In this document: positions 23,961-39,172 of the stretch, one piece after another | Numbering within the stretch: position 1 is the stretch's first letter | How the letters are laid out: each line of letters starts with the position of its first letter | Origin: Dechloromonas sp. | GTDB taxonomy: Bacteria; Pseudomonadota; Gammaproteobacteria; Burkholderiales; Rhodocyclaceae | Length of the DNA stretch: 39,276 bases | Reading direction: 5' to 3' | NCBI GenBank assembly: GCA_016791065.1 | Contig: JAEUOD010000191.1 | Location: forward strand, 1-39,276 | Translations under genes and position numbers: made by a program | The notes under the pieces: generated by a model | The model's database searches: none | What the model saw: the letters and a program-made list of their open reading frames with translations, nothing else | What the model was told of the DNA's origin: nothing

Positions 23961-24069
23961 TTCCCACAGAGAAACTTTTTTTCTTTGTGTTAAATGGGGG
24001 ATCTATGCCATACGACGTAGGGAGCAATGCTTGTCCAAATAGCCAGAAACGAGGCTGCGGGAGGTACTC

Positions 24070-24408
24070 ATGAAACTCATCACGGCAGTCATCAAGCCGT
24101 TCAAGCTCGATGACGTTCGCAATGCCCTTGCCCTGGTGGGCGTACAGGGTGTGACAGTCACCGAGGTCAAGGGCTTTGGGCGGCAAAAGGGGCATACCGA
24201 GCTTTATCGCGGCGCCGAATACGCGGTGGATTTCCTGCCCAAGGTGAAGCTTGAAATCGCGGTCAAGGCGGACTTGCTTGACCAGGCAGTCGCAGCCATC
24301 GAGAAATCGGCAATGACCGGAAAGATTGGCGACGGGAAGATATTCGTCTTCGACCTGGAGCAGACCATTCGCATCCGTACCGGTGAAACCGGTCAGGACG
24401 CCTTATAA
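24070..24408 (+). CDS. glnK: PII nitrogen regulatory protein (GlnK/GlnB)
   Basis: A trimeric signal protein that reads 2-oxoglutarate and ATP/ADP and is uridylylated under nitrogen limitation. At 112 aa it is the exact family length. The T-loop FGRQKGHTELYRGAEYAVDFLPK contains the modified Tyr51, and the C-terminal signature is TGKIGDGKIFVFDLEQTIRIRTGE. The start has a GGGAGG ribosome binding site. It is followed 10 nt later by amtB, whose channel PII proteins plug when ammonium is plentiful. This neighbour favours glnK over glnB, although the sequence alone does not separate them. The upstream sigma-54-like element fits. Confidence 0.94.
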   Translation: MKLITAVIKPFKLDDVRNALALVGVQGVTVTEVKGFGRQKGHTELYRGAEYAVDFLPKVKLEIAVKADLLDQAVAAIEKSAMTGKIGDGKIFVFDLEQTIRIRTGETGQDAL

Positions 24409-24418
24409 GGGGAATCTC

Positions 24419-25894
24419 ATGAAACGCTTGCTTTCGCTATTCGCTTTTCTTGCCCTGGTCGTCTGCGCCCAGCCCATATTCGCCGCTGACGAGGCGGCGC
24501 CCGCCGCCGCTCCGGTCGCCGCCCAGGTTCAGGCCGCAGCGGCTGCTGCTGCTCCGGCAGCCGCCCCCGAAACCGCACCGGCTCCGGTTCCCAACAAGGG
24601 CGATACCGCCTGGATGATCGTTGCGACCTTGCTGGTCGTGATGATGGCGGCTCCCGGCCTCGGCCTGTTCTACGGCGGCATGGTCCGCAGCAAGAACATG
24701 CTCTCGGTGCTCATGCAGACCCTGGTGATCTTCTGCCTGCTCGGGGTCTTGTGGGCGGTCTACGGGTATTCGCTGGCCTTCACCGAGGGCAATGCCTTCA
24801 TCGGCAGCCTCGACAAGCTGTTCCTGAAGGGGGTGACGCCAGACACGGTGGCCGCGACCTTCAGCAAGGGGGTGGTCATTCCCGAATACATCTACGTCGC
24901 CTTCCAGCTGACCTTCGCAGCCATTACCCCAGCCCTGATCATCGGCGGCTTCGCCGAGCGCGTGAAGTTCTCGGCGGTGCTGGCCTTCATGGTCCTCTGG
25001 TTTACCTTCTCTTACCTGCCGATCGCGCACATGGTCTGGTACTGGGCCGGTCCGGATGCCTACACCGACCAGGCGGCGGCCGATGCGGCAGCCGCCACGG
25101 CCGGCTTCCTCTTCCAGAAAGGCGCGCTCGACTTCGCCGGTGGCACGGTGGTGCATATCAACGCCGGCATCGCCGCGCTGGTCGGTGCCTTCATGGTTGG
25201 CAAACGCGTCGGCTACGGCCGCGAGGCCATGGCCCCGCACAGCCTGGTCATGACCATGGTCGGCGGTTCGCTGCTTTGGGTGGGCTGGTTCGGCTTCAAC
25301 GTCGGGTCCAACCTGGAGGCAACCAGTACTGCGGCGCTAGCGTTCATCAATACCCTGCTCGCCACCTGCGCCGCGACCGTGGCCTGGAGCCTGGTCGAAT
25401 CCCGTCTCAAAGGCAAGCCGTCGATGCTGGGTGCCGTGTCCGGCGCCATCGCCGGCCTGGTGGTGATCACCCCGGCCTGCGGTTTCGTCGGCCCGATGGG
25501 CAGCCTGATCATGGGTGCGCTCGCCGGCGCCCTGTGTTACTGGGGCGTCAATGGCCTGAAACGCATGCTCGGTGTCGATGACACGCTCGACGTCTTTGGC
25601 GTGCATTGCATCGGCGGCATGCTCGGCGCCGTGCTGACCGGCGTATTCGCCTCGCCGGCCCTGGGCGGCACCGGGGTCTATGACTATGTCGCCAACAAGG
25701 TCGGCGACTACGACATGACAGCCCAGGTGATCTCCCAACTGTGGGGTGTGGGGACGAGCGTCGTCTGGTCCGCCGTGGTTTCCATCGTCGCCTTCAAGCT
25801 GATCGATCTGACGATCGGCCTGCGCGTCAGCGAAGAGGAAGAGCGCGAAGGTCTCGACATCATCGCGCACGGCGAAAGCGCTTATCACCCGTAA
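24419..25894 (+). CDS. amtB: AmtB ammonium transporter
   Basis: Inner-membrane ammonium channel, 491 aa from the ATG at 24419, which opens a cleaved signal peptide (MKRLLSLFAFLALVVCAQPIFA). An Ala/Pro-rich periplasmic stretch follows to about residue 60, then eleven transmembrane segments. Key motifs are GLGLFYGGMVRSKN, the Asp of LDFAGGTVVHINAG, and the pore twin histidines in VVHIN and FGVHCIGG. The C-terminal cytoplasmic tail (LRVSEEEEREGLD) is the PII-interacting region. Members of this family also move methylammonium, relevant because the methylamine gene cluster lies about 1.3 kb away. It is co-transcribed with glnK and ends before a strong bidirectional terminator. Confidence 0.96.
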   Translation: MKRLLSLFAFLALVVCAQPIFAADEAAPAAAPVAAQVQAAAAAAAPAAAPETAPAPVPNKGDTAWMIVATLLVVMMAAPGLGLFYGGMVRSKNMLSVLMQTLVIFCLLGVLWAVYGYSLAFTEGNAFIGSLDKLFLKGVTPDTVAATFSKGVVIPEYIYVAFQLTFAAITPALIIGGFAERVKFSAVLAFMVLWFTFSYLPIAHMVWYWAGPDAYTDQAAADAAAATAGFLFQKGALDFAGGTVVHINAGIAALVGAFMVGKRVGYGREAMAPHSLVMTMVGGSLLWVGWFGFNVGSNLEATSTAALAFINTLLATCAATVAWSLVESRLKGKPSMLGAVSGAIAGLVVITPACGFVGPMGSLIMGALAGALCYWGVNGLKRMLGVDDTLDVFGVHCIGGMLGAVLTGVFASPALGGTGVYDYVANKVGDYDMTAQVISQLWGVGTSVVWSAVVSIVAFKLIDLTIGLRVSEEEEREGLDIIAHGESAYHP

Positions 25895-25908
25895 GCGTTG
25901 CGCCAAAT

Positions 25909-25940
25909 GAAAACGGGGGGCGCCATCTCCCCCCGTTTTC
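25909..25940. terminator. Bidirectional intrinsic terminator between amtB and the GNAT gene
   Basis: GAAAACGGGGGG (25909-25920) pairs exactly with CCCCCCGTTTTC (25929-25940) over an 8-nt loop. The A-run on one side and T-run on the other let it serve both convergent genes. Confidence 0.85.
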
Positions 25941-25956
25941 CATTTCAGTCATGCCC

Positions 25957-26412
25957 TCAGGCGAGCAACTTCTTCCAGGCGAACAGGCGGGTCGGCTGCC
26001 AGTCGAGATGTCGATAAAAATCGAGGGCCAGCATGTTGTCGGCGTCGGCAAGCAACTGCACACGGCCGGCACCCTGCGCCGCGCCCCATGCCTGCGCTTG
26101 CGCCAGCAGGGCCTTGCCCAAGCCCTGCCCGCGAAACACGGCGTCGATCACCATGTCCTCGATCCAGACGGAAGGCGCGCCGATCGCCGTCGAGATGACC
26201 AGTTGCGCGCTGACCATGCCGACCACTCCACGGGAGGGATGGCGGGCGACGAAGATCATGCCGCGCTCCGGATTGGCCAATAGCAGGGCCAGCCCGCGCC
26301 GCTGCGCCTCGGTGTCCGGCTTGAAATCCTGTTCGATCGAGAAAAGGACGGCAAGCAGCGCGATCAGCGCATCGATATCCGCCGTCGTTGCCGCTTCGAT
26401 TCGGATCGACAT
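25957..26412 (-). CDS. GNAT-family N-acetyltransferase
   Basis: A 151-residue acetyltransferase-fold protein. The acetyl-CoA binding loop is in VIDAVFRGQGLGKALLAQAQAW (R-G-x-G-L-G-K, about residues 93-105), and the C-terminal LDFYRHLDWQPTRLFAWKK is typical of the family. The substrate is unknown. Its ATG follows immediately after the stop of the XRE-cupin regulator gene (no gap), so the two form one message. Transcription runs away from the methylamine cluster. Confidence 0.87.
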   Translation of the reverse strand: MSIRIEAATTADIDALIALLAVLFSIEQDFKPDTEAQRRGLALLLANPERGMIFVARHPSRGVVGMVSAQLVISTAIGAPSVWIEDMVIDAVFRGQGLGKALLAQAQAWGAAQGAGRVQLLADADNMLALDFYRHLDWQPTRLFAWKKLLA

Positions 26413-27012
26413 CTAGCTCTCCGTCGCGTTCGGGTACATCAGCACGGTCAGGAAGCGGATCGGGCACTGGATCAATTTTTCCGGGCCATGCGGGATGTCA
26501 CCCTCGAAGGTCAGCGAATCGCCCGGCGACAGCACGTAGGTGTTCTGGCCGTGGCGGTACTCGATACAGCCTTCCAGCATGTAGATGAATTCGGTGCCCG
26601 GGTGCTCGAAGATAGGGAAGGTTTCGGATTCGTGATCGATGGTGATCAGGAAGGGTTCGAAAGTCTTCTTCGGCCCCTGGTCGTAGGCCAGCAGATGGTA
26701 GGTATGGCCGCGCTTGGTGCCGCGCCGGACCACTTCCATGCCTTCGTCCTTCTTGACCAGCTGGGCGCTGCCAGCACGCACGTCGTAGCTGCGGAACAGG
26801 GTCGCCAGCGAGACGCCGAGGGCATGCGAGAGGCGCGACAGGGTTTCCAGGCTGGTGGCCGTCTGCGCATTCTCGATCTTCGACAGCATGCCGCGACTGA
26901 TGCCGGCCAGGGTGGCGACATCGGCAATGGTCAGGCCGTGCTTCTGGCGAATGTCCCGGATCGTGTTGCCGAGATAGCGTTCGAGCCCGCCCGGGCTGCT
27001 GGTGTCTGTCAT
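26413..27012 (-). CDS. XRE-family regulator with C-terminal cupin domain
   Basis: A 199-residue one-component regulator. The helix-turn-helix spans about residues 15-75 (IRDIRQKHGLTIADVATLAGISRGMLSKIENAQTATSLETLSRLSHALG). A cupin sensor domain spans about 110-195 (EHPGTEFIYMLEGCIEYRHGQ, LSPGDSLTFEGDIPHGPEKL), which probably binds a small effector. The start at 27012 has AAAGGA upstream and excludes a non-conserved leader. It diverges from purU and the methylamine genes across 144 nt with two palindromes, so it probably controls them and itself. The effector could be methylamine, gamma-glutamylmethylamide or N-methylglutamate; this is inference. Confidence 0.9.
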   Translation of the reverse strand: MTDTSSPGGLERYLGNTIRDIRQKHGLTIADVATLAGISRGMLSKIENAQTATSLETLSRLSHALGVSLATLFRSYDVRAGSAQLVKKDEGMEVVRRGTKRGHTYHLLAYDQGPKKTFEPFLITIDHESETFPIFEHPGTEFIYMLEGCIEYRHGQNTYVLSPGDSLTFEGDIPHGPEKLIQCPIRFLTVLMYPNATES

Positions 27013-27092
27013 GGAGGAAATCCTTTGATAACAGGGGGTTCCCGGATTATCGCACACCCCAAAGTTTCACCGCATGAAAATAAGTTGACCGA

Positions 27093-27131
27093 CATGGTGT
27101 GATGATGCACCATGGGAACTATAGTTTCCAT
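27093..27131. promoter_or_regulatory. Two adjacent palindromes in the regulator/purU divergent region (candidate operators)
   Basis: The first is CATGGTG (27093-27099) / CACCATG (27108-27114) with an 8-nt spacer. The second, at 27112-27131, is a 20-bp palindrome with 18 of 20 positions symmetric, centred on CTATAG. They share bases 27112-27114. The second ends 25 nt before the purU ATG. They are the obvious candidate sites for the adjacent XRE-cupin protein. Confidence 0.6.
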
Positions 27132-27156
27132 GTATGAATCTTTTGGAGTACATTCA

Positions 27157-28017
27157 ATGTCGTCACCCCGTCGCTACACCCTGAAGCTTTCCTGCCCGGA
27201 TCGGGTTGGGATTGTCGCTACGGTCAGCAGTTTCGTCGCCGCCCACAACGGCTGGATCACCGAAGCCAATCACCACGCCGACGCCGGCGCCGGGCGTTTC
27301 TTCCTGCGCCAGGAATTGCTCGCCGATTCCCTGCCCTTCGATATCGATGAACTACGCCACCGCTTTGCGCCGATTGCCGAGGAGTTCGGCATGGAATGGA
27401 GCATTGCCGACAGCGCCCGCAAGAAGCGCGTCGTGATCATGGTCTCCAAGCAGGAACACTGCCTCTACGACCTACTGGCACGCTGGCAGTCCGGCGAGCT
27501 GAATATCGACATCCCCTGCGTCATCTCGAATCACGAGACTTTCCGTGGCCTGGTCGAATGGCACGGCATTCCCTTCCATTACGTGCCGGTCACGCCGGAA
27601 ACCAAGAGCGCGTCCTACGCCCGGGTGATGGAGCTCTTCGAGGCCGCCGAGGGCGACGTCATGGTGCTGGCCCGCTACATGCAGATCCTCTCGCCGCAGA
27701 TGTGCGAGAAGTACCCCGGCCAGATCATCAACATCCACCACAGCTTCCTGCCCAGCTTCGTCGGCGCCAAGCCCTATCACCAGGCCTTCGACCGGGGCGT
27801 CAAGCTGATCGGCGCGACCTGCCACTTCGTGACCTCGGAGCTGGACCAGGGGCCGATCATCGAGCAGGACGTCATCCGCATCGACCACTCCGACCAGCCG
27901 GAAGACCTCGTCCGCTACGGCAAGGACATCGAGAAGGCGGTGCTCGCCCGCGGCCTGCGCTTCCACCTCGAAGACCGCGTCATCACCCACGGCAACAAGA
28001 CCGTCGTTTTCCGTTAA
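27157..28017 (+). CDS. purU: PurU, formyltetrahydrofolate deformylase
   Basis: Hydrolyses 10-formyl-tetrahydrofolate to formate and tetrahydrofolate. The protein is 286 aa. An N-terminal ACT domain covers residues 1-85 (YTLKLSCPDRVGIVATVSSFVAAHNGWITEANHH). The formyltransferase fold follows (RVVIMVSKQEHCLYDLL, NIHHSFLPSFVGAKPYHQAF, GATCHFVTSELDQGPIIEQ), with the catalytic Asn, His and Asp in place. The start at 27157 is chosen because GGAG lies about 10 nt upstream and the ACT domain begins there. It leads the methylamine operon and is separated from mgdA by 11 nt, so C1 units released as methylene-tetrahydrofolate could leave as formate after FolD. Confidence 0.95.
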   Translation: MSSPRRYTLKLSCPDRVGIVATVSSFVAAHNGWITEANHHADAGAGRFFLRQELLADSLPFDIDELRHRFAPIAEEFGMEWSIADSARKKRVVIMVSKQEHCLYDLLARWQSGELNIDIPCVISNHETFRGLVEWHGIPFHYVPVTPETKSASYARVMELFEAAEGDVMVLARYMQILSPQMCEKYPGQIINIHHSFLPSFVGAKPYHQAFDRGVKLIGATCHFVTSELDQGPIIEQDVIRIDHSDQPEDLVRYGKDIEKAVLARGLRFHLEDRVITHGNKTVVFR

Positions 28018-28028
28018 GGAGTATCGCA

Positions 28029-29270
28029 ATGCCCTGGCGCCTTCTCCGCTTTGCCACCGCCAAGCAACATCCCGAGCCGCGGATGTTCACCGCGCATGCC
28101 GAACTGAAGAAATCCTACGATGTGGTAATCATCGGCGGCGGTGGCCACGGCCTGTCGGCGGCCTACTACCTGGGCCGCGACCACGGCATCACCAATGTCG
28201 CGGTGCTCGAAAAGGGCTACATCGGCGGCGGCAACACCGGCCGCAACACCACCATCATCCGCTCCAATTACCTGACCCCGGAAGGCGTCAAGTTCTACGA
28301 CGAATCGGTCCGCCTCTGGCAGGACCTCTCCACCGAGTTCGATCTCAACCTGTTCTACGCCAACCGCGGCCACTTCACGCTGGCGCATACCGATTCCGCG
28401 CTGCGCACGATGCGCTGGCGGGCCGAAGTGAACAAGCACTACGGCGTCGATTCCGAGGTCGTCGGCCCGGATTTCGTCAAACAGGCGGCGCCGATGATCG
28501 ACCTCTCCTGCGGCGGCCATGCGCCCATCCTCGGCGCGCTCTACCACGCCCCCGGCTCGGTCGCCCGCCACGATGCCGTGGCCTGGGGCTACGGCAAGGG
28601 CGCCGACCTGCGCGGTGCTGAAATCCACCAGCAGACCGAAGTCCTCGGCATCGTCGTCAAGGGCGGCAAGGTCTGCGGCGTGCAGACCTCGCGCGGCTTC
28701 ATCGAAACCAACAAGGTGCTGTGCGCCGTTGCCGGTTTCACGCCGCGCATCCTCGAGATGGTCGACATCAAGACGCCGCTCTACATCCACCCGCTGCAGG
28801 CCATGGTCAGCGAGCCGATCAAGCCCTGGCTCGATCCCATCCTGGTCTCCGGCAGCCTGCACATCTACATCAGCCAGTCGGCGCGCGGCGAGCTGGTCAT
28901 GGGCGCCTCGCTCGACCCGTACGAAGTGCAATCGACGCGCTCGACCCTCGACTTCGTCGAAGGCCTGTCGGCCCACATGCTCGACATGTTCCCCTTCCTC
29001 TCGCACGTCAAGGTGATGCGCCAGTGGGCCGGGATGGCCGACATGACGCCGGACTTCGCGCCGATCATGGGCAAGACGCCGGTTGAAGGCTTCTACCTCG
29101 ATGCCGGCTGGGGCACCTGGGGCTTCAAGGCCACCCCGGTCTGCGGCAAGACCATGGCCCACACAGTGGCCACCGATACCCCGCATCCGCTGATCCACGG
29201 CTTCTCCCTCGACCGCTTCCGCAACTACGCCCTGACCGGCGAAAAGGGCGCGGCGAGCGTGGGCCACTGA
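28029..29270 (+). CDS. mgdA: N-methylglutamate dehydrogenase subunit A (sarcosine oxidase beta-like)
   Basis: A 413-residue flavoprotein homologous to the beta subunit of heterotetrameric sarcosine oxidase. The FAD-binding dinucleotide fold is DVVIIGGGGHGLSAAYYLGRDHG at about 31-53, followed by GNTGRNTTIIRSNY. The His in SVARHDAVAWGYG (His181) aligns by motif with the His that carries covalent FMN in sarcosine oxidases. A C-terminal GFYLDAGWGTWGFKATPVCGK segment is also present. It is the catalytic subunit that oxidises an N-methyl group. The neighbouring gmaS and mgsABC argue for N-methylglutamate rather than sarcosine as substrate; sequence alone cannot prove this. The ribosome binding site is GGAG, 9 nt upstream. 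Confidence 0.85.
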   Translation: MPWRLLRFATAKQHPEPRMFTAHAELKKSYDVVIIGGGGHGLSAAYYLGRDHGITNVAVLEKGYIGGGNTGRNTTIIRSNYLTPEGVKFYDESVRLWQDLSTEFDLNLFYANRGHFTLAHTDSALRTMRWRAEVNKHYGVDSEVVGPDFVKQAAPMIDLSCGGHAPILGALYHAPGSVARHDAVAWGYGKGADLRGAEIHQQTEVLGIVVKGGKVCGVQTSRGFIETNKVLCAVAGFTPRILEMVDIKTPLYIHPLQAMVSEPIKPWLDPILVSGSLHIYISQSARGELVMGASLDPYEVQSTRSTLDFVEGLSAHMLDMFPFLSHVKVMRQWAGMADMTPDFAPIMGKTPVEGFYLDAGWGTWGFKATPVCGKTMAHTVATDTPHPLIHGFSLDRFRNYALTGEKGAASVGH

Positions 29271-29292
29271 GTCGTCCACCAGGAACAACGCC

Positions 29293-29550
29293 ATGAAAAT
29301 CATGACCTGCCCGATCAACGGCCCGCGCCCGGTTTCCGAATTCTTCTACTGGGGCGAGATGCGCCCGATGCCGGATCCCGACACCTGCAGCGACGACGCC
29401 TGGGCCGACTACGTCTTCAACCGCAACGGCGCGCCCGGCGTGAAGAAGGAGTGGTGGTGCCATACCGCCAGCAACACCTGGTTCGTCGCCGTACGCGACA
29501 CCGAAAAAGACCAGGTTTTACGTACCTACCTCTACGGAGAACAACCGTGA
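29293..29550 (+). CDS. mgdB: N-methylglutamate dehydrogenase subunit B (sarcosine oxidase delta-like)
   Basis: An 85-residue small subunit matching the delta subunit of heterotetrameric sarcosine oxidase (about 90-100 aa). It has CPINGPRPVSEFFYWGEM at the N-terminus and KKEWWCHTASNTWFVAVRDT near the C-terminus. In sarcosine oxidase this subunit holds a structural zinc through Cys and His residues. Here Cys6, Cys56 and His57 are visible, but the usual H-x2-G-C arrangement is replaced by WCHTASNTW, so the zinc site may differ or be absent. It lies 22 nt after mgdA and overlaps mgdC by one base (TGATG). Confidence 0.85.
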   Translation: MKIMTCPINGPRPVSEFFYWGEMRPMPDPDTCSDDAWADYVFNRNGAPGVKKEWWCHTASNTWFVAVRDTEKDQVLRTYLYGEQP

Positions 29551-32450
29551 TGCGACTGCCTCCGATTTCAGGCGAGTGGATCGACCGCGCCACGACCCTT
29601 TCCTTCAGCTTCGAAGGGAAAAGCTACGAGGGCCATGCCGGCGACTCGATCTCCAGCGCCCTGCTGGCCGCCGATGCCGGCATGCTCGGCCGCAGCTTCA
29701 AGTACCACCGGCCGCGTAGCGTGCTGTCGATGGCCAACCATGACGTCAACACCGTCTGCCAGTGGGGCGAGCGCCCGAACGTGCGGGCCGATGTCACCCC
29801 CCTGCAGGCCGGCATGGCGCTGACAGCGGTCAATACCTTCGGCGGCCTGGCGGCCGACAAGGCCCGTCATCTGGGCAAGTTCGCGCGCTTCATGCCGGTC
29901 GGCTTCTATTACAAGTCCTTCTACAGCAAGAAGCTGTTCCCGATGTGGGAGCGCATGTTCCGCACACTGACCGGGCTCGGCAAGGTCGATTTCGCGACAC
30001 CGCACCTGCGCACCGCCAAGCGCTACGACTTCTGCGACGTGCTGGTCATCGGCGCCGGCCCGTCCGGTCTTTCCGCCGCCCTGGCGGCGGCCGAACAGGG
30101 GGCCGAAGTCGTCATCGTCGACGAGAATGCACGCGCTGGCGGCAGTGCCGGCTACGCACTGGGTGCCGAGGCTGCCCGCGCCGCGCAGCATGCCGAACAA
30201 CTCGCGGCAGTCGAAGCCCACCCGGCAATCCGCCTGCTGACCGGCACCTACGCCGCCGGCTACTACACCGACCACTGGATTCCGCTGGTCGATGGCGATG
30301 TGCTGACCAAGATGCGGGCCAGGAGCGTCGTCGTCGCCAGCGGCGCCTACGAGCAGCCGGCGGTTTTCCACAACAACGACCTGCCCGGCGTGATGCTCGC
30401 CTCGGCGGCGCAGCGCCTGATCTATCGCTACGCCGTGCGGCCGATGCAAAAGGCAGTGGTGCTGGTCGCCAACCAGGACGGCTATCGTGCCGCCCTCGAT
30501 CTCGCCGCCCACGGCATCGAAGTGGTGGCGGTGGTCGACCTGCGCCCCGAACCTGCTGCCGGCGAGGCCGAACAGGCCGTCAAGGCCAAGGGCATTCGTG
30601 TCCTGACGGGTCACTGCATCGTCGAGGCCTTGCCTGGCTCGCACGGCCAGTCGGTGGCCGGCGCCGTCGTCGCCAAAACCCCGCAGCCGGGCGAGATGCC
30701 GGGCAGTGAGCGCGAAACCTTGGTCTGCGACGGCATCGTGATGAGCGTCGGCTGGGCGCCGGCGGCCAACCTGCTCTACCAGGCCGGCACCCGCATGCGC
30801 TACGAGAAAGCGCTCGAACAGTTCGTGCCCGACACGCTGCCGGCCGGCGTCTTCGCCTGCGGCCGGGTCAATGGCGTGCATACCCTGGCCAGCCGCCGGC
30901 TCGACGGCCAGCGCGCCGGCAGCGCCGCCGCAGCGAATGCCGGTTTCGGTGCCGCGCAAGCCATCGCTGTTCCGGCCGAAACGGAAAGCCCGAGCCATCC
31001 CTGGCCTATCGTCTCGCACCCCAAGGGCAAGAACTTCGTCGATTTCGACGAGGACCTGCAACTGCAGGATTTCCAGAACGCCGTGCAGGAAGGCTTCGAC
31101 AACATCGAACTGTTGAAGCGCTTCTCCACCGTCGGCATGGGGCCAAGCCAGGGCAAGCACTCGAACATGAACGCCCTGCGCATTCTCGCCCGTCTGGTCG
31201 GCAAGGAACCGCAGCAGGTCGGCACGACGACGGCGCGCCCCTTCTTCCATCCGGTGCCGATGGCGCTGCTCGGCGGCCGCGGCTTCAACCCGGAACGCCA
31301 GACGCCGCTGCAATCCCGCCACGATGCGCTGGGCGCGCAGTGGATGCCGGCCGGCGTCTGGCAGCGCCCGGAGTATTACCGGGTCGCCAACCAGGATCGC
31401 CTGAGCTGCATCCGCAGCGAAGTCACGGCCGTGCGCCAGGGGCTGGGCATCATCGATGTCGGCACGCTCGGCAAGCTCGAGGTGATCGGGCCGCAGGCCG
31501 CCGAATTCCTCGAGCGCGTCTATATCTCCAAGTATGCCGGCCTCAAGGTGGGCATGACGCGCTACGCCGTGATGTGCGACGAATCCGGTGTCGTCATCGA
31601 CGACGGCGTGGTCGCCCGGTTGGCCGAGGATCACTTCTACTTCACGACGACGACCTCGGGTGCCGCCACCATCTACCGCGAACTGTCGCGCCTCAACACC
31701 CTGTGGCAGCTCGACTGCGGCATCGTCAACCACACCGGTGCCTTCGCGGCGGTCAATCTGGCCGGTCCGAAATCGCGCGAGGTGCTCGGCAAGCTGACCA
31801 AGCTCGATCTGTCGTCCACCGCCTTCCCCTACCTGGCGCTGCGCGAGGGCACCGTCGCCGGCATTCCGGCCCGCCTGATGCGCGTCGGCTTCGTCGGCGA
31901 ATGGGGCTACGAAATTCACGTCCCGGCCAACCAGGGGGCTGCCCTCTGGGATGCCCTGATGGCCGCCGGGCAGCCAGCCGGTATTCGACCGTTCGGCGTC
32001 GAGGCACAGCGTCTGCTGCGCCTGGAAAAGGGCCACATCATCATCGGCCAGGACACCGATGGCCTGAGCAATCCCTACGACGTCGGCCTCGACTGGGCGA
32101 CCAAGATGGACAAGCCCTTCTTCGTCGGCAAGCGCAGCCTGCAGGTCATCGAACGCCAGCCACGCAAGCAGCAACTGGTCGGTTTCGTGCTCGGCGAGCG
32201 CTTTACCGGCCAGGCACCGCAGGAGTGCCACCTGGTCATCGAGAACGGCGAGATTGCCGGCCGCGTCACCAGCATCGCCTGGAGCCCGACCCTCGGCCGC
32301 CATATCGGCCTGGCCTTCGTCCGGCCCTCGCAGGCCGCGCCCGGCACGAGCATCGCCATCCGCCTGAGCGACGGCAGCACGGTGCAGGCCAGCGTCGCTC
32401 GCTTGCCCTTCTACGACCCCGACAACCTGAAGCAGAAGGAGGCAGCATGA
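29550..32450 (+). CDS. mgdC: N-methylglutamate dehydrogenase subunit C (sarcosine oxidase alpha-like)
   Basis: A 966-residue large subunit, the usual length of sarcosine oxidase alpha. An N-terminal ferredoxin-like domain without cluster cysteines covers about 1-100. A dinucleotide-binding domain starts near residue 162 (DVLVIGAGPSGLSAALAAAEQGAEVVIVDE), and a second nucleotide-binding region lies at about 300-480. A C-terminal glycine-cleavage-T-like folate-binding domain covers about 590-960 (WGYEIHVPANQG, GVEAQRLLRLEKGHIIIGQDTDG). The folate domain lets the methyl carbon be captured as 5,10-methylene-tetrahydrofolate. The start overlaps the mgdB stop by one base; a GTG directly before it is an alternative. 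Substrate assignment relies on the neighbouring genes. Confidence 0.88.
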   Translation: MRLPPISGEWIDRATTLSFSFEGKSYEGHAGDSISSALLAADAGMLGRSFKYHRPRSVLSMANHDVNTVCQWGERPNVRADVTPLQAGMALTAVNTFGGLAADKARHLGKFARFMPVGFYYKSFYSKKLFPMWERMFRTLTGLGKVDFATPHLRTAKRYDFCDVLVIGAGPSGLSAALAAAEQGAEVVIVDENARAGGSAGYALGAEAARAAQHAEQLAAVEAHPAIRLLTGTYAAGYYTDHWIPLVDGDVLTKMRARSVVVASGAYEQPAVFHNNDLPGVMLASAAQRLIYRYAVRPMQKAVVLVANQDGYRAALDLAAHGIEVVAVVDLRPEPAAGEAEQAVKAKGIRVLTGHCIVEALPGSHGQSVAGAVVAKTPQPGEMPGSERETLVCDGIVMSVGWAPAANLLYQAGTRMRYEKALEQFVPDTLPAGVFACGRVNGVHTLASRRLDGQRAGSAAAANAGFGAAQAIAVPAETESPSHPWPIVSHPKGKNFVDFDEDLQLQDFQNAVQEGFDNIELLKRFSTVGMGPSQGKHSNMNALRILARLVGKEPQQVGTTTARPFFHPVPMALLGGRGFNPERQTPLQSRHDALGAQWMPAGVWQRPEYYRVANQDRLSCIRSEVTAVRQGLGIIDVGTLGKLEVIGPQAAEFLERVYISKYAGLKVGMTRYAVMCDESGVVIDDGVVARLAEDHFYFTTTTSGAATIYRELSRLNTLWQLDCGIVNHTGAFAAVNLAGPKSREVLGKLTKLDLSSTAFPYLALREGTVAGIPARLMRVGFVGEWGYEIHVPANQGAALWDALMAAGQPAGIRPFGVEAQRLLRLEKGHIIIGQDTDGLSNPYDVGLDWATKMDKPFFVGKRSLQVIERQPRKQQLVGFVLGERFTGQAPQECHLVIENGEIAGRVTSIAWSPTLGRHIGLAFVRPSQAAPGTSIAIRLSDGSTVQASVARLPFYDPDNLKQKEAA

Positions 32451-33016
32451 ACGCCGTCACGTCCGCACGCCCGGTGAGCGATGTCGCCCACGCCACCTGT
32501 CTCGGCATTGCCGATCTCTCGGCGCGGGCTCGCGCCGGCGCCAAGGGGCCGGGGACGGCTGCCTGGCTGGCCGGACTCGGCCTGCCCCTGCCGGCCCGGC
32601 CGAACAGCTGGCTGGCGCTGCCCGAGGGCGGCCTGATCGCCCGCCTCGGCAATACCGAATACCTGATCGAGGGCAACGCCGCCCTGGTCGAGTCCGTCCT
32701 GCGGGCGCCACGTGCCGCCGGGGTCTATCCGGTGTTGCGGCAGGACGCCGCCTTCGCCCTCTGCGGCAGCCGGGTGAATGAGCTGCTGCTGCAGGTCTGC
32801 AATGTCGATTTCCGCTGCCTCGCGGCCGATCCGGCGCTCGTGCTGCTGACTTCGATGGCCGGGGTCGGCGTCACGGTCCTGCGCAGCGGCGACATCGCCA
32901 ACCCGGTCTTCCGGCTGTGGTGCGACGGCACCTACGGCCACTACCTCGCCACCACCTTGCTCGAGATCGCCGGCGAGTTGGGCGGCGGTGGCATCGCTCC
33001 GGATTTACTGCCTTGA
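32447..33016 (+). CDS. mgdD: N-methylglutamate dehydrogenase subunit D (sarcosine oxidase gamma-like)
   Basis: A 189-residue subunit matching sarcosine oxidase gamma, with a folate-binding-like fold similar to a shortened T-protein. Typical segments are CLGIADLSARARAGAKGPGTAAWLAGLGLPLP near residues 18-50 and RLGNTEYLIEG in the middle. It overlaps the mgdC stop by 4 nt (ATGA). It completes the four-subunit set in the order A-B-C-D and is followed 45 nt later by gmaS. Confidence 0.83.
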   Translation: MNAVTSARPVSDVAHATCLGIADLSARARAGAKGPGTAAWLAGLGLPLPARPNSWLALPEGGLIARLGNTEYLIEGNAALVESVLRAPRAAGVYPVLRQDAAFALCGSRVNELLLQVCNVDFRCLAADPALVLLTSMAGVGVTVLRSGDIANPVFRLWCDGTYGHYLATTLLEIAGELGGGGIAPDLLP

Positions 33017-33061
33017 AAACCCCCATCCACATCACTGCAAACGCCATTTTGGAGCGCCACC

Positions 33062-34390
33062 ATGACCCCCGCTGAAGCAAAAGCCTTTCTTGCGGACAAC
33101 AACGTCAAATACGTTCTTGCCCAGTTCGTCGACATCCACGGCACGGCCAAGGCCAAGTCGGTCCCGGCCGACCATTTCGAAGACATCATCACCAATGGCG
33201 CCGGCTTCGCCGGGTTCGCCATCTGGGGCATGGGCATCGAGCCGCACGGCCCGGACTACATGGCCGTTGGCGATCTCGACACGTTGTCGCTGGTACCCTG
33301 GCAGCCGGGTTACGCCCGCATCGTCTGCGACGGCCACGTCCATGGCGAACCGTGGTCGATCGACGCCCGCGTCGCCCTGAAGAAACAGCTCAAGCGCCTC
33401 GAAGCCAAGGGCCTGACCTTCTACACCGGTCTCGAACCCGAGTTCTCGCTGCTCAAGAAAGATGCCGAAGGCCAGATCAAGCCGTGCGACGACACCGACG
33501 CGCTGGCCAAGCCCTGCTATGACTACAAGGGGCTCTCGCGTTCCCGCCTCTTCCTCGAAAGGCTGACCGACAGCGTCAAGGCGGTCGGCATCGACGCCTA
33601 CCAGATCGACCACGAGGACGCCAACGGCCAGTTCGAGATCAACTACACCTTCGAGGACTGCCTCAGCTCCTGCGACCACTACATCTTCTTCAAGATGGCT
33701 GCCGCCGAGATCGCCAACGACCTCGGGCTGATCTGTTCCTTCATGCCCAAGCCTTTCGCCAGCCGCCCCGGCAACGGCATGCACATGCACATGTCGCTCG
33801 GTGACGGCAAGGCCAACCTGTTCCAGGACAAGAGCGACCCGCAGGGCATGAAGCTGTCGAAACTGGCCTACCAGTTCCTCGCCGGCGTCCTCAAGCATGC
33901 CCCGGCCCTGGCCGCGATCTGTGCGCCGACCGTCAATTCCTACAAGCGCCTCGTCGTCGGCCGCTCGCTGACCGGCGCCACCTGGGCCCCGGCCTACATC
34001 AGCTACGGCGACAACAACCGCTCGTCGATGGTGCGCATTCCCGGTGGCCGACTCGAACTGCGCCTACCGGACGGCGCCTGCAACCCCTACCTGGCCACCG
34101 CGGCCGTCATCGCGGCCGGCCTCGACGGCATCGAGAACGACCTCGACCCGGGCAAGCCGCACAACATGAATCTCTACGAACTGTCGCCGGCCCAGCTCAA
34201 GGCCGAAGGCATCGAGATCCTGCCGCAGAACCTGCACGAGGCGCTCACGGCGCTGGAAGCGGACAGCACGCTGTGCGCCGCGCTCGGCCCGGTGGCGGGC
34301 GAATTCCTCAAGTTGAAGCACATGGAATGGGTGGAATACATGCGCCATGTCTCCGACTGGGAAATCAAGAATTACCTGGAATTTTTCTGA
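33062..34390 (+). CDS. gmaS: Gamma-glutamylmethylamide synthetase (glutamine synthetase type III-like)
   Basis: ATP-dependent ligase of the glutamine synthetase superfamily, 442 aa. The N-terminal beta-Grasp domain ([19 protein letters not shown]) is followed by a catalytic domain with [48 protein letters not shown] and [18 protein letters not shown]. In methylamine users the enzyme joins methylamine to glutamate, giving gamma-glutamylmethylamide. Superfamily members of this GlnT/GMAS type are hard to tell apart by motif, so the substrate is inferred from its position between mgdABCD and mgsABC. It is preceded by GGAG and lies 53 nt before mgsA. Confidence 0.88.
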
Positions 34391-34443
34391 AATCCAAATC
34401 GCTGCCCTGCACACGGGGCTGACGTTAGCAACAGGAGAAAATC

Positions 34444-35352
34444 ATGTGTGGAATTGTTGGATTGCTGGTTAAGACCCCGGCCTTGCGCGAGCGGCTGGGC
34501 GAACTGATGGTGCCGATGCTGATCGGCATGACCGAACGCGGCCCGGATTCGGCCGGCCTCGCAGTCTTCACTGACCCACTGCCGGACAACGTGCGCAAGA
34601 TCAGCGTCTATTCCGGCCTGACCGAGGACGGCGCCGATTTCAACTGGCTGGGCCTGTCCCACGATCTCAAGTCGCACCTCGGCACGACCGTCGGTGTCGA
34701 GGCCAAGGGCAACCATGCCATCCTGACCACCAGCCTCGACCCCGAGGTCATCAAGCGCTGGATCAAGGAGCGCCACCCCAAGCTGCACCTGCTCTCGACC
34801 GGGCGCAGCATCGATCTCTACAAGGATATCGGCACGCCGGCCGAGGTCGCCGCCCGCTACAACTTCGCCAAGCTCAAGGGCAGCCACCTGGTCGGCCATA
34901 CGCGGATGGCCACCGAGTCTGCCGTGACCCCGGACCGCGCCCACCCCTTCACCGCCGGCCAGGATTTCTGCCTGGTCCATAACGGCTCGCTGTCCAACCC
35001 GAATGGCATCCGCCGCATGCTCGAGCCGCGCGGTATCAGCTTCGAGACCGACAACGACACCGAGGCCGCCTGCCGCTTCCTGGAGTGGCGCCTGCGCGAG
35101 GGCGACGACCTTGAAGTCGCGCTGCAGAAGGGCTTCGAGGAACTCGACGGTTTCTACACCTTCCTGATGGGCACGCCGGACAAGCTGGCGCTAATCCGCG
35201 ACCCCTTCGCCTGCAAGCCGGCGGTTGTTGCCGAAACCGCGGACTACGTGGCGATCGCCTCCGAGTTCCGTTCGCTGGCGCACCTGCCCGACATCAAGAA
35301 TGCCCACGTTTTCGAGCCTGCTCCCGAGGAGATGTACGTATGGAAAATCTGA
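34444..35352 (+). CDS. mgsA: N-methylglutamate synthase subunit A (class II glutamine amidotransferase domain)
   Basis: A 302-residue class II glutamine amidotransferase with the nucleophilic Cys2 of MCGIVGLL. GMTERGPDSAGLAVF, VGHTRMATESAVTPDRAHPF and VHNGSLSNPNG form the usual active-site surroundings. It corresponds to the amidotransferase part of glutamate synthase, here a separate gene. In the N-methylglutamate pathway it would release the methylamine moiety from gamma-glutamylmethylamide. The ribosome binding site is AGGAG. Its last 13 nt overlap the mgsB start in another frame. Confidence 0.88.
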   Translation: MCGIVGLLVKTPALRERLGELMVPMLIGMTERGPDSAGLAVFTDPLPDNVRKISVYSGLTEDGADFNWLGLSHDLKSHLGTTVGVEAKGNHAILTTSLDPEVIKRWIKERHPKLHLLSTGRSIDLYKDIGTPAEVAARYNFAKLKGSHLVGHTRMATESAVTPDRAHPFTAGQDFCLVHNGSLSNPNGIRRMLEPRGISFETDNDTEAACRFLEWRLREGDDLEVALQKGFEELDGFYTFLMGTPDKLALIRDPFACKPAVVAETADYVAIASEFRSLAHLPDIKNAHVFEPAPEEMYVWKI

Positions 35353-36029
35353 CTTTCGATCTGGCCCAGACCTCGCTACGCGAGCTCAACCAGTTCCTGC
35401 ACAACGACGCCAAGAAGGGCGAAGTCGATAAGGTGACGGTGCTCAACCCTGATGGCGCCCACAACATCGCCGTCGGCCTCGACTGCCCGGTCACGGTCGA
35501 AGTCCATGGCCATGCCGGCTACTACGCCGGCGGTATGAACAAGACCGCCCGCGTCGTCATCCACGGCAGCGCCGGCACCGGCGTCGGCGAGAACATGATG
35601 AGCGGCGTCGTCCACGTCAAAGGCTTCGCCTCGAACGGTGCCGGTGCCTCGGCCCACGGCGGCCTGCTCGTCATCGACGGCGACGCCGGCCTGCGCTGCG
35701 GCATTTCCCTCAAGGGCGGCGACATCGTCGTCGGCGGTTCGGTCGGCAGCTTCTCGGCCTTCATGGCCCAGGCCGGCCGCATGGTGATCTGCGGCGATGC
35801 CGGCGATGCGCTCGGCGATTCGCTCTACGAAGCGGTGCTTTACGTCCGCGGCAACATCAAGTCGATGGGGGCCGATACCCAGATCGAACCGATGAGCGAT
35901 GCCGATTACGCAGCCGTCGCCGACCTGCTCCGGCAGGCGGGGATCGAGCACAACCCCAAGGAGTTCAAGCGGGTGGCTTCCAAGCGGGAGCTGTACTACT
36001 GGAACGCCGATGCCAACCAAGAATACTGA
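35340..36029 (+). CDS. mgsB: N-methylglutamate synthase subunit B (GXGXG-repeat domain)
   Basis: A 229-residue protein corresponding to the C-terminal beta-helix domain of glutamate synthase large subunit. Repeats rich in Gly are visible: NKTARVVIHGSAGTGVGENMMSG, FASNGAGASAHGGLLVIDGDAGLRCG, DIVVGGSVGSFSAF and MVICGDAGDALGD. This domain is structural and helps form the interface between amidotransferase and synthase domains. It overlaps mgsA by 13 nt, with GGAG upstream, and is followed by mgsC 10 nt later. Confidence 0.87.
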   Translation: MENLTFDLAQTSLRELNQFLHNDAKKGEVDKVTVLNPDGAHNIAVGLDCPVTVEVHGHAGYYAGGMNKTARVVIHGSAGTGVGENMMSGVVHVKGFASNGAGASAHGGLLVIDGDAGLRCGISLKGGDIVVGGSVGSFSAFMAQAGRMVICGDAGDALGDSLYEAVLYVRGNIKSMGADTQIEPMSDADYAAVADLLRQAGIEHNPKEFKRVASKRELYYWNADANQEY

Positions 36030-36039
36030 GGAGTCCGTC

Positions 36040-37398
36040 ATGGAAGCCAAACCCATCAAGCACCTGTCCAAAGAAGAATCCGCCGGTTACGACCGCAAGA
36101 CCCTGGACTACATCCGCAATGCCGCCGCCCACGGCCTGTACGAAATCCGCGGCATGGGCGCCAAGCGCAAGCTGCCCAATTTCGACGACCTAGTCTTCCT
36201 CGGCGCCTCGCTGTCGCGCTACGCCCTCGAAGGTTATCGCGAAAAATGCAGCACCAAGACCATCCTCGGCACACGCTTCGCCAAGAAGCCGATCGAACTG
36301 GAAACGCCGATCACCATCGCCGGCATGAGCTTCGGGGCGCTATCCGCCAACGTCAAGGAAGCGCTTGGCCGCGCGGCCACCGAAGTCGGCACCTCTACCA
36401 CCACCGGCGACGGCGGCATGACGCCGGAAGAACGACTGTCATCGAAAACCCTGGTCTACCAATGCCTGCCCAGCCGTTACGGTTTCAATCCTGACGACGT
36501 TCGCCGTGCCGATGCCATCGAAGTGGTCATCGGTCAGGGCGCCAAGCCGGGCGGCGGCGGCATGCTGCTCGGCCAGAAGGTCTCGGCCCGTGTCGCCGGC
36601 ATGCGCACCTTGCCGGCCGGCGTCGACCAGCGTTCGGCCTGCCGTCACCCGGACTGGACCGGCCCGGACGACCTAGCGATCAAGATCCAGGAACTGCGCG
36701 AAATGACCGACTGGGAGAAGCCAATCTACGTCAAGGTCGGCGCCACCCGCACCTTCAATGACGTCAAGCTGGCCGTGCATGCTGGCGCCGACGTCATCGT
36801 GGTCGATGGCATGCAGGGCGGCACCGCCGCGACGCAGACCTGCTTCATCGAGCACATCGGCATCCCAACCCTGGCCGCGCTGCGCCAGGCGGTCGATGCC
36901 CTCGAAGACCTCGACATGAAGGGCAAGGTCCAGCTCATCATCTCGGGCGGCGTGCGCACCGGCCCGGACGTCGCCAAGGCGCTGGCCATGGGCGCCGATG
37001 CCGTGGCGATCGGCCAGGGCGTCATGATCGCCATGGGCTGCAACGGCGAAACCTACTGCCAGGGCGGCCAGCACCACTCGGCCATCGCCGACTACGCCGC
37101 ACTCGGCACGGCGCCGGGCTTCTGCCACCACTGCCACACCGGTAAGTGCCCGGTCGGCATCACGACGCAGGATGAGATTCTCGAGCAGCGCCTCGAGCCG
37201 ATGGTCGGCGCCAAGCATCTGAAGAACTACCTGAAGACGCTGAACATGGAGCTGACGACGATCGCCCGCGCCTGCGGCAAGCAGAACGTGCATCACCTTG
37301 AGCGCGAAGACCTCGTTGCCCTGACCGTCGAGGCCGCCGCGATGGCCCGCCTGCCCTTGGCCGGCACCTCCTGGGTGCCCGGTTTCTCCGGTTACTGA
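36040..37398 (+). CDS. mgsC: N-methylglutamate synthase subunit C (FMN/Fe-S glutamate synthase-like)
   Basis: A 452-residue protein equivalent to the central FMN-binding synthase domain of glutamate synthase. The (beta/alpha)8 barrel shows ETPITIAGMSFGALS, GTSTTTGDGGMTPEE, KPGGGGMLLG, HAGADVIVVDGMQGGTAAT and ISGGVRTGPDVAKALAMGADAVAIGQG. Cysteines 362, 365 and 370 (CHHCHTGKC) lie where glutamate synthase binds its [3Fe-4S] cluster, with C-x2-C-x4-C spacing. It would transfer the methylamine nitrogen to 2-oxoglutarate. The start at 36040 has GAGGAG 7 nt upstream. It is the last gene before a terminator; folD follows. Confidence 0.9.
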   Translation: MEAKPIKHLSKEESAGYDRKTLDYIRNAAAHGLYEIRGMGAKRKLPNFDDLVFLGASLSRYALEGYREKCSTKTILGTRFAKKPIELETPITIAGMSFGALSANVKEALGRAATEVGTSTTTGDGGMTPEERLSSKTLVYQCLPSRYGFNPDDVRRADAIEVVIGQGAKPGGGGMLLGQKVSARVAGMRTLPAGVDQRSACRHPDWTGPDDLAIKIQELREMTDWEKPIYVKVGATRTFNDVKLAVHAGADVIVVDGMQGGTAATQTCFIEHIGIPTLAALRQAVDALEDLDMKGKVQLIISGGVRTGPDVAKALAMGADAVAIGQGVMIAMGCNGETYCQGGQHHSAIADYAALGTAPGFCHHCHTGKCPVGITTQDEILEQRLEPMVGAKHLKNYLKTLNMELTTIARACGKQNVHHLEREDLVALTVEAAAMARLPLAGTSWVPGFSGY

Positions 37399-37420
37399 GC
37401 CCGCCATTTCACCCCTTGCC

Positions 37421-37450
37421 CGGGGCGTTTACGGACGCCCCGTTTTATTT
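37421..37450 (+). terminator. Intrinsic terminator between mgsC and folD
   Basis: CGGGGCGT (37421-37428) pairs with ACGCCCCG (37435-37442) over a 6-nt loop, followed by TTTTATTT. It ends the methylamine run only 12 nt before the folD ATG, so folD probably receives only readthrough or has its own promoter further up. Confidence 0.82.
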
Positions 37451-37461
37451 GCGGAGTATTC

Positions 37462-38376
37462 ATGGCAGCCCGAATCATTGATGGAAAGGCGCTTTCCCGG
37501 CGCTTGCGCGAGGAGTTTCGCGGACGCGTCGGCAAGTTGGCGACACAGGGCGTCGTGCCCGGCCTGGCGGTGATCCTGGTCGGCGACAATCCGGCGTCGC
37601 GGGTTTATGTCGGCAACAAGGTCAAGGCCTGTGCCGAATGCGGCGTCGCATCGTTTCACCACGCCCTCCCGGCCGAAGCCAGCGAGGCCGAGGTACTGGC
37701 CTGCATCGACCGGTTGAACGCCGACCCGGCGGTCAACGGCATCCTCGTGCAGTTGCCCTTGCCGCCGCATATCGATGTCCGCAAGGTGCTCGAAGCCATC
37801 GCCGTCGACAAGGATGTGGACGGCTTTCACCTCTACAACGTCGGCGGCCTGGTCGTCGGCAACACCATCTTCCCTCCGTGCACGCCGTACGGCGTACAAC
37901 TGCTGCTCGAAACCACCGGCACCGAGGTCGCCGGCAAGAACGTGGTGGTGGTCGGCGCCAGCAACATCGTCGGCAAGCCGATGGCCCTGATGCTGCTGCA
38001 GAAGGAAGCGACGGTGACGGTCTGCCACGCCAAAACCCGCGATCTCGCCCAGCACACCATCCTCGCTGACATCCTGATCGTCGCCGCCGGCAAGCCGGGG
38101 CTGATCGTGCCGCGGATGGTCAAGGAAGGCGCGATCGTCATCGACGTCGGCATCAACCGCCTGGCCGACGGCCGCATCGTCGGCGATGTCGATTTTGCCG
38201 GGGTAAAGGAAAAAGCCTCGTGGATCACGCCGGTCCCCGGCGGGGTCGGCCCGATGACCGTGACCATGCTGATCGAAAACACCCTGCGCTCGACCGAGCG
38301 CGCCCATCACTTGAGAAAAGACGATGACTACCAGGACTGTGAAGCGCCGGCCGTCAAGGCGCACGCGGACAACTGA
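37462..38376 (+). CDS. folD: FolD, methylene-tetrahydrofolate dehydrogenase/cyclohydrolase
   Basis: Bifunctional enzyme that oxidises 5,10-methylene-tetrahydrofolate with NADP+ and hydrolyses the methenyl form to 10-formyl-tetrahydrofolate. The 304-residue protein carries GDNPASRVYVGNKVKAC (catalytic Y-x3-K), NGILVQLPLPPHID, the Rossmann-type VVVGASNIVGKPMALML and the C-terminal GGVGPMTVTMLIENTL. Residues after about 285 form an unusual tail (HHLRKDDDYQDCEAP) that overlaps the FolB-like fragment in another frame. It completes the C1 route: MgdABCD delivers methylene-tetrahydrofolate, FolD gives formyl-tetrahydrofolate, and PurU gives formate. It is separated from mgsC by a terminator. Confidence 0.94.
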   Translation: MAARIIDGKALSRRLREEFRGRVGKLATQGVVPGLAVILVGDNPASRVYVGNKVKACAECGVASFHHALPAEASEAEVLACIDRLNADPAVNGILVQLPLPPHIDVRKVLEAIAVDKDVDGFHLYNVGGLVVGNTIFPPCTPYGVQLLLETTGTEVAGKNVVVVGASNIVGKPMALMLLQKEATVTVCHAKTRDLAQHTILADILIVAAGKPGLIVPRMVKEGAIVIDVGINRLADGRIVGDVDFAGVKEKASWITPVPGGVGPMTVTMLIENTLRSTERAHHLRKDDDYQDCEAPAVKAHADN

Positions 38377-38506
38377 ACCGCCGCGCCCAGCCCGGGACGA
38401 CGCCTTGCATCTTCGAATCGACGGCCTGGGCCTGCAAGCCTCGCTCGGGATTTATCCGCACGAACGCCGGCAACGGCAGGCCATCGTCGTCGATAACCCG
38501 CAGTGA
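38324..38506 (+). pseudogene. Truncated FolB-like (dihydroneopterin aldolase) fragment
   Basis: A 60-codon ORF whose residues 27-57 (DALHLRIDGLGLQASLGIYPHERRQRQAIVVD) resemble the first third of dihydroneopterin aldolase FolB, where a pattern like 'I..L.....G.Y..ER...Q.....D' is usual. A stop follows at once at 38504, and the expected remainder of about 85 residues is not seen in any forward frame. Its start overlaps the folD tail. The likely meaning is a folD-folB pair in which folB has lost its 3' part by deletion, though a short random match is possible. Confidence 0.45.
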
Positions 38507-38665
38507 CAAACGCTGCGAGTATGCCCATCACCTTGAGGAACAGGATTTACGTTTGCAGTGCATCCTGCTGCTGATTTAGTGGAATCGCGATGATCTATTG
38601 AGCGATTGCTTGAACCTATACGATGCCTAGAATGTCATCTGGAGAATTCCCCAGGGAGTTCAGTC

Positions 38666-38983: not shown

Positions 38984-39136
38984 ACAGCAGTTCGGCCGGA
39001 ACTCAACGAGATGCTCTGTCTTTTTTAGACGAACCTGAGCGGTCGGATGGCATTTTTACTTCAGGCTTTCCGCAAATCGGCGCTAAATATCGCCTGCAGA
39101 TTCCGCAGGTTATTGCTTGGCAATAGGCTATGTAAA

Positions 39137-39172
39137 AGCAAAAAGCCCCCGTTAGCGTGTTGCTAACGGGGG
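39137..39172 (-). terminator. Terminator of the rRNA operon (minus strand)
   Basis: CCCCCGTTAGC and GCTAACGGGGG (plus coordinates 39146-39156 and 39162-39172) pair exactly over a 5-nt loop. On the minus strand the hairpin is followed by a T-rich tract (plus-strand A-run at 39137-39144). It lies 12 nt past the 5S 3' end. Confidence 0.85.

Follow-up and report, generated by a model that had tools for sequence, protein, structure and literature searches.

The contig of Dechloromonas sp. analyzed here, 39,276 nucleotides over its whole length (hereafter the window), carries on its forward strand what appears, with a probability of roughly 0.94, to be a complete gene set for the N-methylglutamate (NMG) pathway of methylamine use together with its own folate branch. 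Ten genes, purU, mgdA, mgdB, mgdC, mgdD, gmaS, mgsA, mgsB, mgsC, and folD, follow one another on the + strand at 27157-38376 with small gaps or overlaps. The eight core genes and purU are all open frames and closely packed, the gaps from purU to mgsC ranging from -13 to +53 bases. These open frames and the family matches below bear out the preliminary description of this DNA, which had proposed a full mgdABCD-gmaS-mgsABC cluster headed by purU. Its extent, 27157-37398, holds for those nine genes and misses folD (37462..38376, +), one gene past the end; the flanks were also left out, namely a divergent XRE-cupin regulator gene, a GNAT gene, and glnK-amtB, genes whose relatives adjoin NMG clusters at some of the other loci. 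The system itself is already well known, and the window is a new carrier of it.

The cluster opens with purU (27157..28017), whose product matches 10-formyl-tetrahydrofolate (THF) deformylase (TIGR00655, 372 bits, cut-off 286). The next four genes are assigned to NMG dehydrogenase, and three of their products are related to sarcosine oxidase subunits yet fall under the curated cut-offs: MgdA (28029..29270), the SoxB-like flavin adenine dinucleotide (FAD) subunit, with PF01266 at 212 bits and TIGR01373 (soxB) at 474 bits against 529; MgdB (29293..29550), the SoxD-like subunit, with PF04267 at 98.9 bits against 27 and TIGR01374 at 62 bits against 116.5; and MgdC (29550..32450), a SoxA-like protein with a GcvT-type folate domain, with PF01571, PF08669, and PF17806 and with TIGR01372 at 861 bits against 1164. 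The mgdC start at 29550 was read from the sequence, whereas the searches ran from 29553. MgdC also matches a 2Fe-2S domain model, but a single cysteine lies within its first 110 residues, so a 2Fe-2S cluster in its N-terminal part is unlikely. The divergent gamma subunit MgdD (32447..33016) was named by its position and by tblastn identities of 24-62% (amino acids) to the gene in the same place elsewhere. The set is completed by gmaS (33062..34390), mgsA (34444..35352), mgsB (35340..36029), and mgsC (36040..37398), followed by folD, a cluster-type copy of methylene-THF dehydrogenase/cyclohydrolase (NF010786, 433 bits, cut-off 421). All of these genes lie on the + strand.

The product of gmaS passes TIGR03105, a model that bears the name type III glutamate-ammonia ligase, with 644 bits (cut-off 469.6). 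Its best match among solved structures is a glutamate-methylamine ligase (9qur, 743 bits), followed by Rhodovulum GmaS (7cql, 356 bits), while chains named glutamine synthetase reach 272 bits at most. In the Rhodovulum enzyme, Asp177, Glu186, and Arg312 are described as catalytic along with further pocket residues, and the Trp300 and Ala48 sites are where GmaS is said to lack the Glu-flap Glu and the ammonia-binding Asp of glutamine synthetase (PMC7948447). We mapped these residues with a chain offset of 20 derived from the alignment and found that the window GmaS agrees at 10 of 10 published active-site positions (Lys32, Ala50, Tyr153, Gln181, Asp183, Glu185, Glu192, Asn194, Trp308, and Arg320), with Asp183, Glu192, and Arg320 aligned to the catalytic triplet and Trp308 and Ala50 to the two discriminating sites. 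By these comparisons, the predicted protein belongs with the gamma-glutamylmethylamide synthetases. The three domains of the synthase are split over three genes in a row, all over the gathering thresholds: MgsA is the class II glutamine amidotransferase-like subunit with a Met-Cys start (PF13522 and PF13537), MgsB is the GXGXG subunit (PF01493), and MgsC is the catalytic subunit of the flavin mononucleotide/glutamate-synthase type (PF01645, 314.5 bits against 20.4). MgsB is barely over its threshold (34.3 bits, cut-off 32.5), and in both NCBIfam and the solved structures it comes nearest to formylmethanofuran dehydrogenase subunit C (55 bits against a model cut-off of 131). A single long GltB glutamate synthase was considered for MgsC and rejected, the protein having 452 amino acids and scoring 140.6 bits against 1047 for NF008730.

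Given that MgdA, MgdB, and MgdC resemble sarcosine oxidase subunits, the mgd genes could instead form a catabolic operon for sarcosine or dimethylglycine, with a heterotetrameric sarcosine oxidase standing beside unrelated glutamate-synthase-like genes. The beta-delta-alpha-gamma subunit order and the domain make-up are as in sarcosine oxidase, and among solved structures MgdC and MgdA come closest to sarcosine oxidases (451 and 384 bits, respectively), a result that says little because no chain named NMG dehydrogenase is among those matches. To place MgdC, we inferred a tree from 56 alpha subunits, namely that of the window, 36 from loci of a genome-contig scan, 4 from genome stretches, and 15 from plasmid loci. 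The scan comprises the best 80 of 592 confirmed stretches, the basis of all counts out of 80 given here; many of the 80 are related Pseudomonas and many are cut by contig ends, so these counts are lower bounds. The 36 loci were hand-picked from the 51 of 80 with mgdA and mgdC, and the 15 plasmid loci from 60 listed rows among 412 records with a match. Rows for the sarcosine-type group were chosen by gene context, the biochemically proven sarcosine oxidases lying outside the set.

In this tree, the window MgdC pairs with that of G339, a genome of another family in the same order (support 99), and is nested in a clade of 46 rows with a support of 100 in the Shimodaira-Hasegawa-like approximate likelihood ratio test (SH-aLRT). 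Of these rows, 43 come from loci with gmaS or mgs and 3 are plasmid rows without mgs in the fetched stretch. Outside the clade stand three rows with glyA or serine-dehydratase neighbors and one row with neither, and forcing the window MgdC together with these four sarcosine-type or other non-mgs rows was rejected by the approximately unbiased (AU) test (p-AU 0.000165). The groups for this test were adjusted after the tree had been seen: five plasmid rows were first labeled sarcosine/other, and one of them (L167), which had fallen among alphaproteobacterial mgs-linked rows, was removed. A grouping with sarcosine oxidases, which the preliminary description had named as the outcome that would overturn its reading, was thus sought for MgdC, and both the tree and the AU test place the protein elsewhere. 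The model cut-offs and the tree lead us to reject the sarcosine-oxidase reading of mgd, and with gmaS-mgsABC in the same run of genes we hold such an operon to be highly improbable. Judged on the MgdC tree and AU test, MgdABCD is a predicted four-subunit NMG dehydrogenase apart from sarcosine oxidase. Within the best tree, the alphaproteobacterial and the beta/gammaproteobacterial alpha subunits of NMG dehydrogenase form separate clades, but a single clade for both was not rejected (p-AU 0.284). Two cyanobacterial bins (L070 and L079) hold an NMG cluster of the window's clade, with MgdC 62-63% identical, which reflects either wide transfer or misplaced contigs.

The cluster might also serve another N-methylated amino acid, with methylamine incidental, in the manner of the role of Mgd in homarine catabolism that a 2026 paper cites from an earlier report. 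Three plasmid relatives (MgdC 45%, 43%, and 49% identical in amino acids) that stand beside other amino-acid or transport genes, with gmaS and mgs absent from the fetched stretch, lend this idea some color, but the joint presence of gmaS, mgsABC, and mgd in one run points to methylamine, and we give it very little credence. Plasmid mgdABCD relatives of this kind (L157, L162, and L170) carry purU, and two of them folD, next to amino-acid lyase, transport, or 4-methylaminobutanoate oxidase genes; their Mgd proteins are possibly demethylases of other N-methyl amino acids.

For the NMG pathway, the gene set and family memberships are given by the sequence itself, and from them we infer every reaction in the host. 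The chain follows the scheme for Methyloversatilis universalis FAM5 (PMC5023235) and the folD-purU route that was proposed for methylene-THF oxidation in Paracoccus aminophilus (PMC4543880). AmtB would let (methyl)ammonium in, and GmaS would join methylamine to glutamate at the expense of ATP. MgsABC would then pass the methylamino group on to give NMG, which MgdABCD would oxidize to glutamate while loading the methyl carbon on THF as methylene-THF. FolD would convert methylene-THF to 10-formyl-THF, and PurU would split the latter into formate and THF. Most likely, nitrogen supply would be the main use of methylamine, with formate a by-product for carbon and energy. No Fae was found in the assembly that contains the window (G000) or in 24 other genomes of the genus, and no Mch in any of 76 genus genomes; in the absence of these tetrahydromethanopterin markers from the genomes searched, a folate route is expected, with FolD and PurU as the probable exit for the carbon. 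In a carrier devoid of methanopterin genes, oxidation would run over folate only. Folate-borne oxidation has already been proposed in papers on SAR11 and Rhodobacteraceae, so a folate-only route is not a new idea. The cluster adds one carrier of a widespread environmental pathway and offers a case where folate enzymes alone could oxidize the carbon, which is relevant to how methylene-THF gets oxidized, a question raised for FAM5.

Several points weigh against this interpretation. MgdD is the one cluster protein for which neither Pfam nor NCBIfam gives a match at E <= 0.001, which is in line with the account in PMC5023235 of this dehydrogenase subunit as unusually divergent. A terminator-like hairpin (37421..37442, +), a 9-pair stem followed by TTTTATTT with a fold z of -2.0, separates folD from mgsC; terminator-like hairpins across the region are at chance level (12 found, 11.7 expected). 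According to PMC3160333, GmaS is not essential for methylamine oxidation in FAM5, and PMC8292978 notes that methylamine may be a direct substrate of NMG synthase, so the pathway may be able to do without the GmaS step. Free formaldehyde has also been considered as the product, and PMC4543880 treats methylene-THF as the carbon exit as unsettled. The one general model tried gave no formate dehydrogenase above its cut-off in the bin; the best match is a contig-edge fragment whose translation reads as nitrate reductase. Finally, the bin is 82% complete and mixed, which makes the absences weak.

The window is contig C11 of assembly G000, a bin of 3.17 Mb in 196 contigs with 81.8% completeness and 1.6% contamination. 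Despite the latter figure, sequences of at least two organisms seem to be combined in the bin: positions 9931-13903 of bin contig C52 (L187) form a second collinear version of window positions 1-4194, from ubiD to aas, at 84, 78, and 80% identity. Its gene content therefore says little about the owner of the cluster, and the host is not safely inferred. We consider it somewhat more probable than the contrary that the contig was misplaced and that the cluster and the rest of the bin come from different organisms. In that region C52 is nearer to the genus members G443 and G431 (83-90% where aligned) than to the window, two other bin contigs (C65 and C98) share a 1.4-kb overlap at 93%, and no other genome among the 76 searched in the genus carries this gmaS type. 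However, the left part of the window (ubiD and aas genes) is itself collinear with G443 and G431 (77-85%), which makes an owner of the genus or close to it likely, and the region may truly be duplicated within one genome. A 5S ribosomal RNA (rRNA) fragment (39186-39276, -) closes the contig, and the contig break probably lies in an rRNA operon.

No methylamine dehydrogenase or methanol dehydrogenase genes were seen in the window, in agreement with the preliminary description. Elsewhere in the bin, contig C17 (L047) carries at 1020-4799 a tryptophan tryptophylquinone (TTQ) amine dehydrogenase set, consisting of the heavy chain, MauD, the light chain, and a protein in the MauE place, together with two proteins that bear CxxCH motifs (by eye). 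The dehydrogenase scores 305 bits with aromatic amine dehydrogenase but 131 bits with methylamine dehydrogenase, and the C17 proteins fall below the methylamine dehydrogenase model cut-offs (174.8 against 454 and 168.6 against 196.9 bits). We therefore rejected it as a mau-type methylamine dehydrogenase in favor of the aromatic-amine type, within an incomplete bin; a TTQ heavy-chain match is present in 9 of 25 genus genomes searched, G000 included. Two pyrroloquinoline quinone (PQQ) alcohol dehydrogenases in the bin are over the cut-off, and the one that was compared scores 855 bits with ethanol dehydrogenases against 387 with XoxF and was likewise rejected as a methanol dehydrogenase, being of the ethanol-dehydrogenase type. 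The bin also contains a RuBisCO large subunit.

Among the 80 scan loci, mgdA and mgdC occur in 51, mgsABC in 76, and both sets in 49. The unbroken order mgdABCD-gmaS-mgsABC was seen in 23, with purU at its head in 7 and folD behind it in 2. At the level of the order, a GmaS homologue (E <= 1e-60) is present in 59 of 399 genomes, 49 of them at >=60% identity (G000 included, one partial). Within the genus, three of 76 genomes have a GmaS match, namely G000 and two at 45%, and no other genome has the window GmaS type. This distribution of 1 in 76 and the cluster-type FolD and PurU suggest a recent transfer into the genus. The matter is not settled because the bin is mixed, a housekeeping yardstick between the families is lacking, and gmaS in methylotrophs is described as mostly vertically inherited with some transfers (PMC5023228).

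Upstream of purU, and divergent from it, lies a gene for an XRE-type helix-turn-helix protein with a cupin domain (26413..27057, -; PF01381 and PF07883 over gathering). A homologue is present in 67 of the 80 loci, and in 55 it is divergent and within 800 bases, with many of these again being related Pseudomonas; we take the protein as the likely regulator of the pathway. XRE genes near NMG clusters have already been drawn in PMC7574528, whereas a literature search found no paper on the binding site of such regulators. We collected 59 regions in which an XRE homologue of >=40% identity and the next cluster gene are divergent and lie no more than 800 bases apart, leaving 52, the window's included, after removal of near-copies. 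A palindromic motif search over the 52 regions returned aGGGAAAtAAagTTtCCT with a likelihood score of 217, compared with 29-44 in 12 shuffles run with fewer starts and iterations. A matrix trained on 18 gammaproteobacterial regions alone scored 114.5 against 25.7-37.1 in 10 shuffles at equal settings. Over the 39,276 bases, this matrix ranked a site upstream of glnK first (23968..23985, no strand assigned) and a site in the XRE-purU intergenic region second, the latter being the 18-bp near-palindrome TGGGAACTATAGTTTCCA at 27113..27130 (no strand assigned), which we propose as a candidate operator.

In the other 29 loci, which were outside the training set and some of which are near-copies of each other, the best site lay in the XRE intergenic region in 12, a site there was among the top three in 19, and 10 had none in the top three. 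When the matrix columns were permuted, 12 of 29 at rank 1 was reached by 2 of 300 matrices and 19 of 29 in the top three by 5 of 300. As for the window, 19 of 300 permuted matrices ranked the XRE-purU site as highly as the unpermuted one did, 55 put the glnK region in the top two, and 2 put both promoter sites there. Because an AT-rich motif meets AT-rich intergenic DNA, and with 55 of 300 permuted matrices reaching the glnK region, the site upstream of glnK, a possible second operator, is weak. Other signals gave little: sigma-70 promoters numbered 0 in 23500-39276 against 2.5 expected in shuffles, and Shine-Dalgarno patterns 68 against 106 expected. Matches to the sigma-54 consensus were at chance (21, with 20.6 expected), and the one at 23944 upstream of glnK accordingly carries no weight. 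We propose, as a tentative and rather doubtful idea, that an 18-bp palindrome (approximately GGGAA-N6-TTTCC) might be the site through which a dedicated XRE-cupin regulator controls the NMG operons of beta- and gammaproteobacteria and, here, also glnK-amtB. Uptake, the release of nitrogen, and the exit of carbon as formate over folate alone would then form one transferable unit. Such a regulator would differ from TmaR of marine alphaproteobacteria, which is of the AraC type. The regulator is the only part of the cluster that may point beyond the published work found, and together with the palindrome it makes a cheap, testable prediction.

Farther upstream are glnK (24070..24408, +), a P-II nitrogen regulator gene just under the cut-off of NF007946 (180.4 against 181 bits), and amtB (24419..25894, +), for an ammonium and possibly methylammonium transporter (TIGR00836, 429 bits, cut-off 343; the start was read from the sequence, and the searches ran from 24410). 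A putative GNAT acetyltransferase gene (25957..26412, -) with weak matches below the GNAT cut-offs separates amtB from the regulator gene and stands beside the regulator in some relatives. Relatives of glnK were found in 8 of the 80 loci and also in L158, those of amtB in 33, and the GNAT gene in 7. The cluster FolD is 84% identical to the cluster FolD of G339 and 55-61% to full-length genus copies, a FolD match being present in 72 of 76 genus genomes, G000 included. PurU is 81% identical to that of G339 and about 70% to copies on bin contigs C65 and C98 and in two genus genomes. AmtB is 87% identical (amino acids) to the AmtB beside gmaS-mgs in L060 and 71-73% to three bin or genus copies (73% to that on C65). 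GlnK shares 79-81% with the bin and genus copies but 77% or less with those adjoining other clusters, an argument against its having traveled with the cluster. It appears from these identities that the folate pair folD/purU travels with the cluster and glnK-amtB less clearly; glnK is probably linked to the cluster though outside the enzyme set. On an Acinetobacter plasmid, a P-II gene, purU, folD, mgd genes, two amt genes, an XRE gene, and glnT-glx genes stand together.

Just after katG, a long hairpin at 23594-23660 (z -3.35) is likely a terminator. Seven same-genus katG loci were fetched, of which six (L145-L149 and L155) match the window in katG only and the seventh (L154) also has genus-type glnK-amtB and purU. 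No empty, cluster-free site was found among the seven.

Of the characterized systems, FAM5 has the same eight genes, in an order that a review gives as mgdABCD-gmaS-mgsABC, as in the window (PMC8292978), whereas the locus tags tabled in PMC5023235 run gmas-mgsABC-mgdABCD, a difference between the papers rather than one seen in the FAM5 sequence. Both papers credit that cluster to Latypova 2010, and deletion of mgdD or mgsC is reported to abolish growth on methylamine (PMC5023235). FAM5 needs fae1 of the tetrahydromethanopterin route for growth on methylamine, and its methylene-THF oxidation is called unknown in these sources (PMC8292978 and PMC5023235); here no Fae or Mch was found, and folD and purU flank the cluster. 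Pseudomonas sp. C5pp has the same enzymes with purU, folD, and amt and uses methylamine as a nitrogen source, but its genes form two operons, gmas-mgsABC-amt and purU-folD-mgdABCD, 37.7 kb apart (PMC8292978). Plasmid pAMI6 of Paracoccus aminophilus JCM 7686 resembles the window in that folD, purU, and an XRE gene come after mgd; unlike the window, its Mgd is of the alphaproteobacterial type (MgdC 34% identical) and a GlxA-type regulator lies beside mgd. The closest cluster found among the loci compared is that of G339 at C5:932500-952400 (L140). It shares the whole ensemble of glnK-amtB, folD, mgs, gmaS, mgd, purU, XRE, and GNAT genes, and its GmaS and MgdC are 88% and 76% identical to those of the window, respectively. 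In contrast to the window, glnK-amtB is located at the folD end rather than the regulator end, and AmtB is 64% identical.

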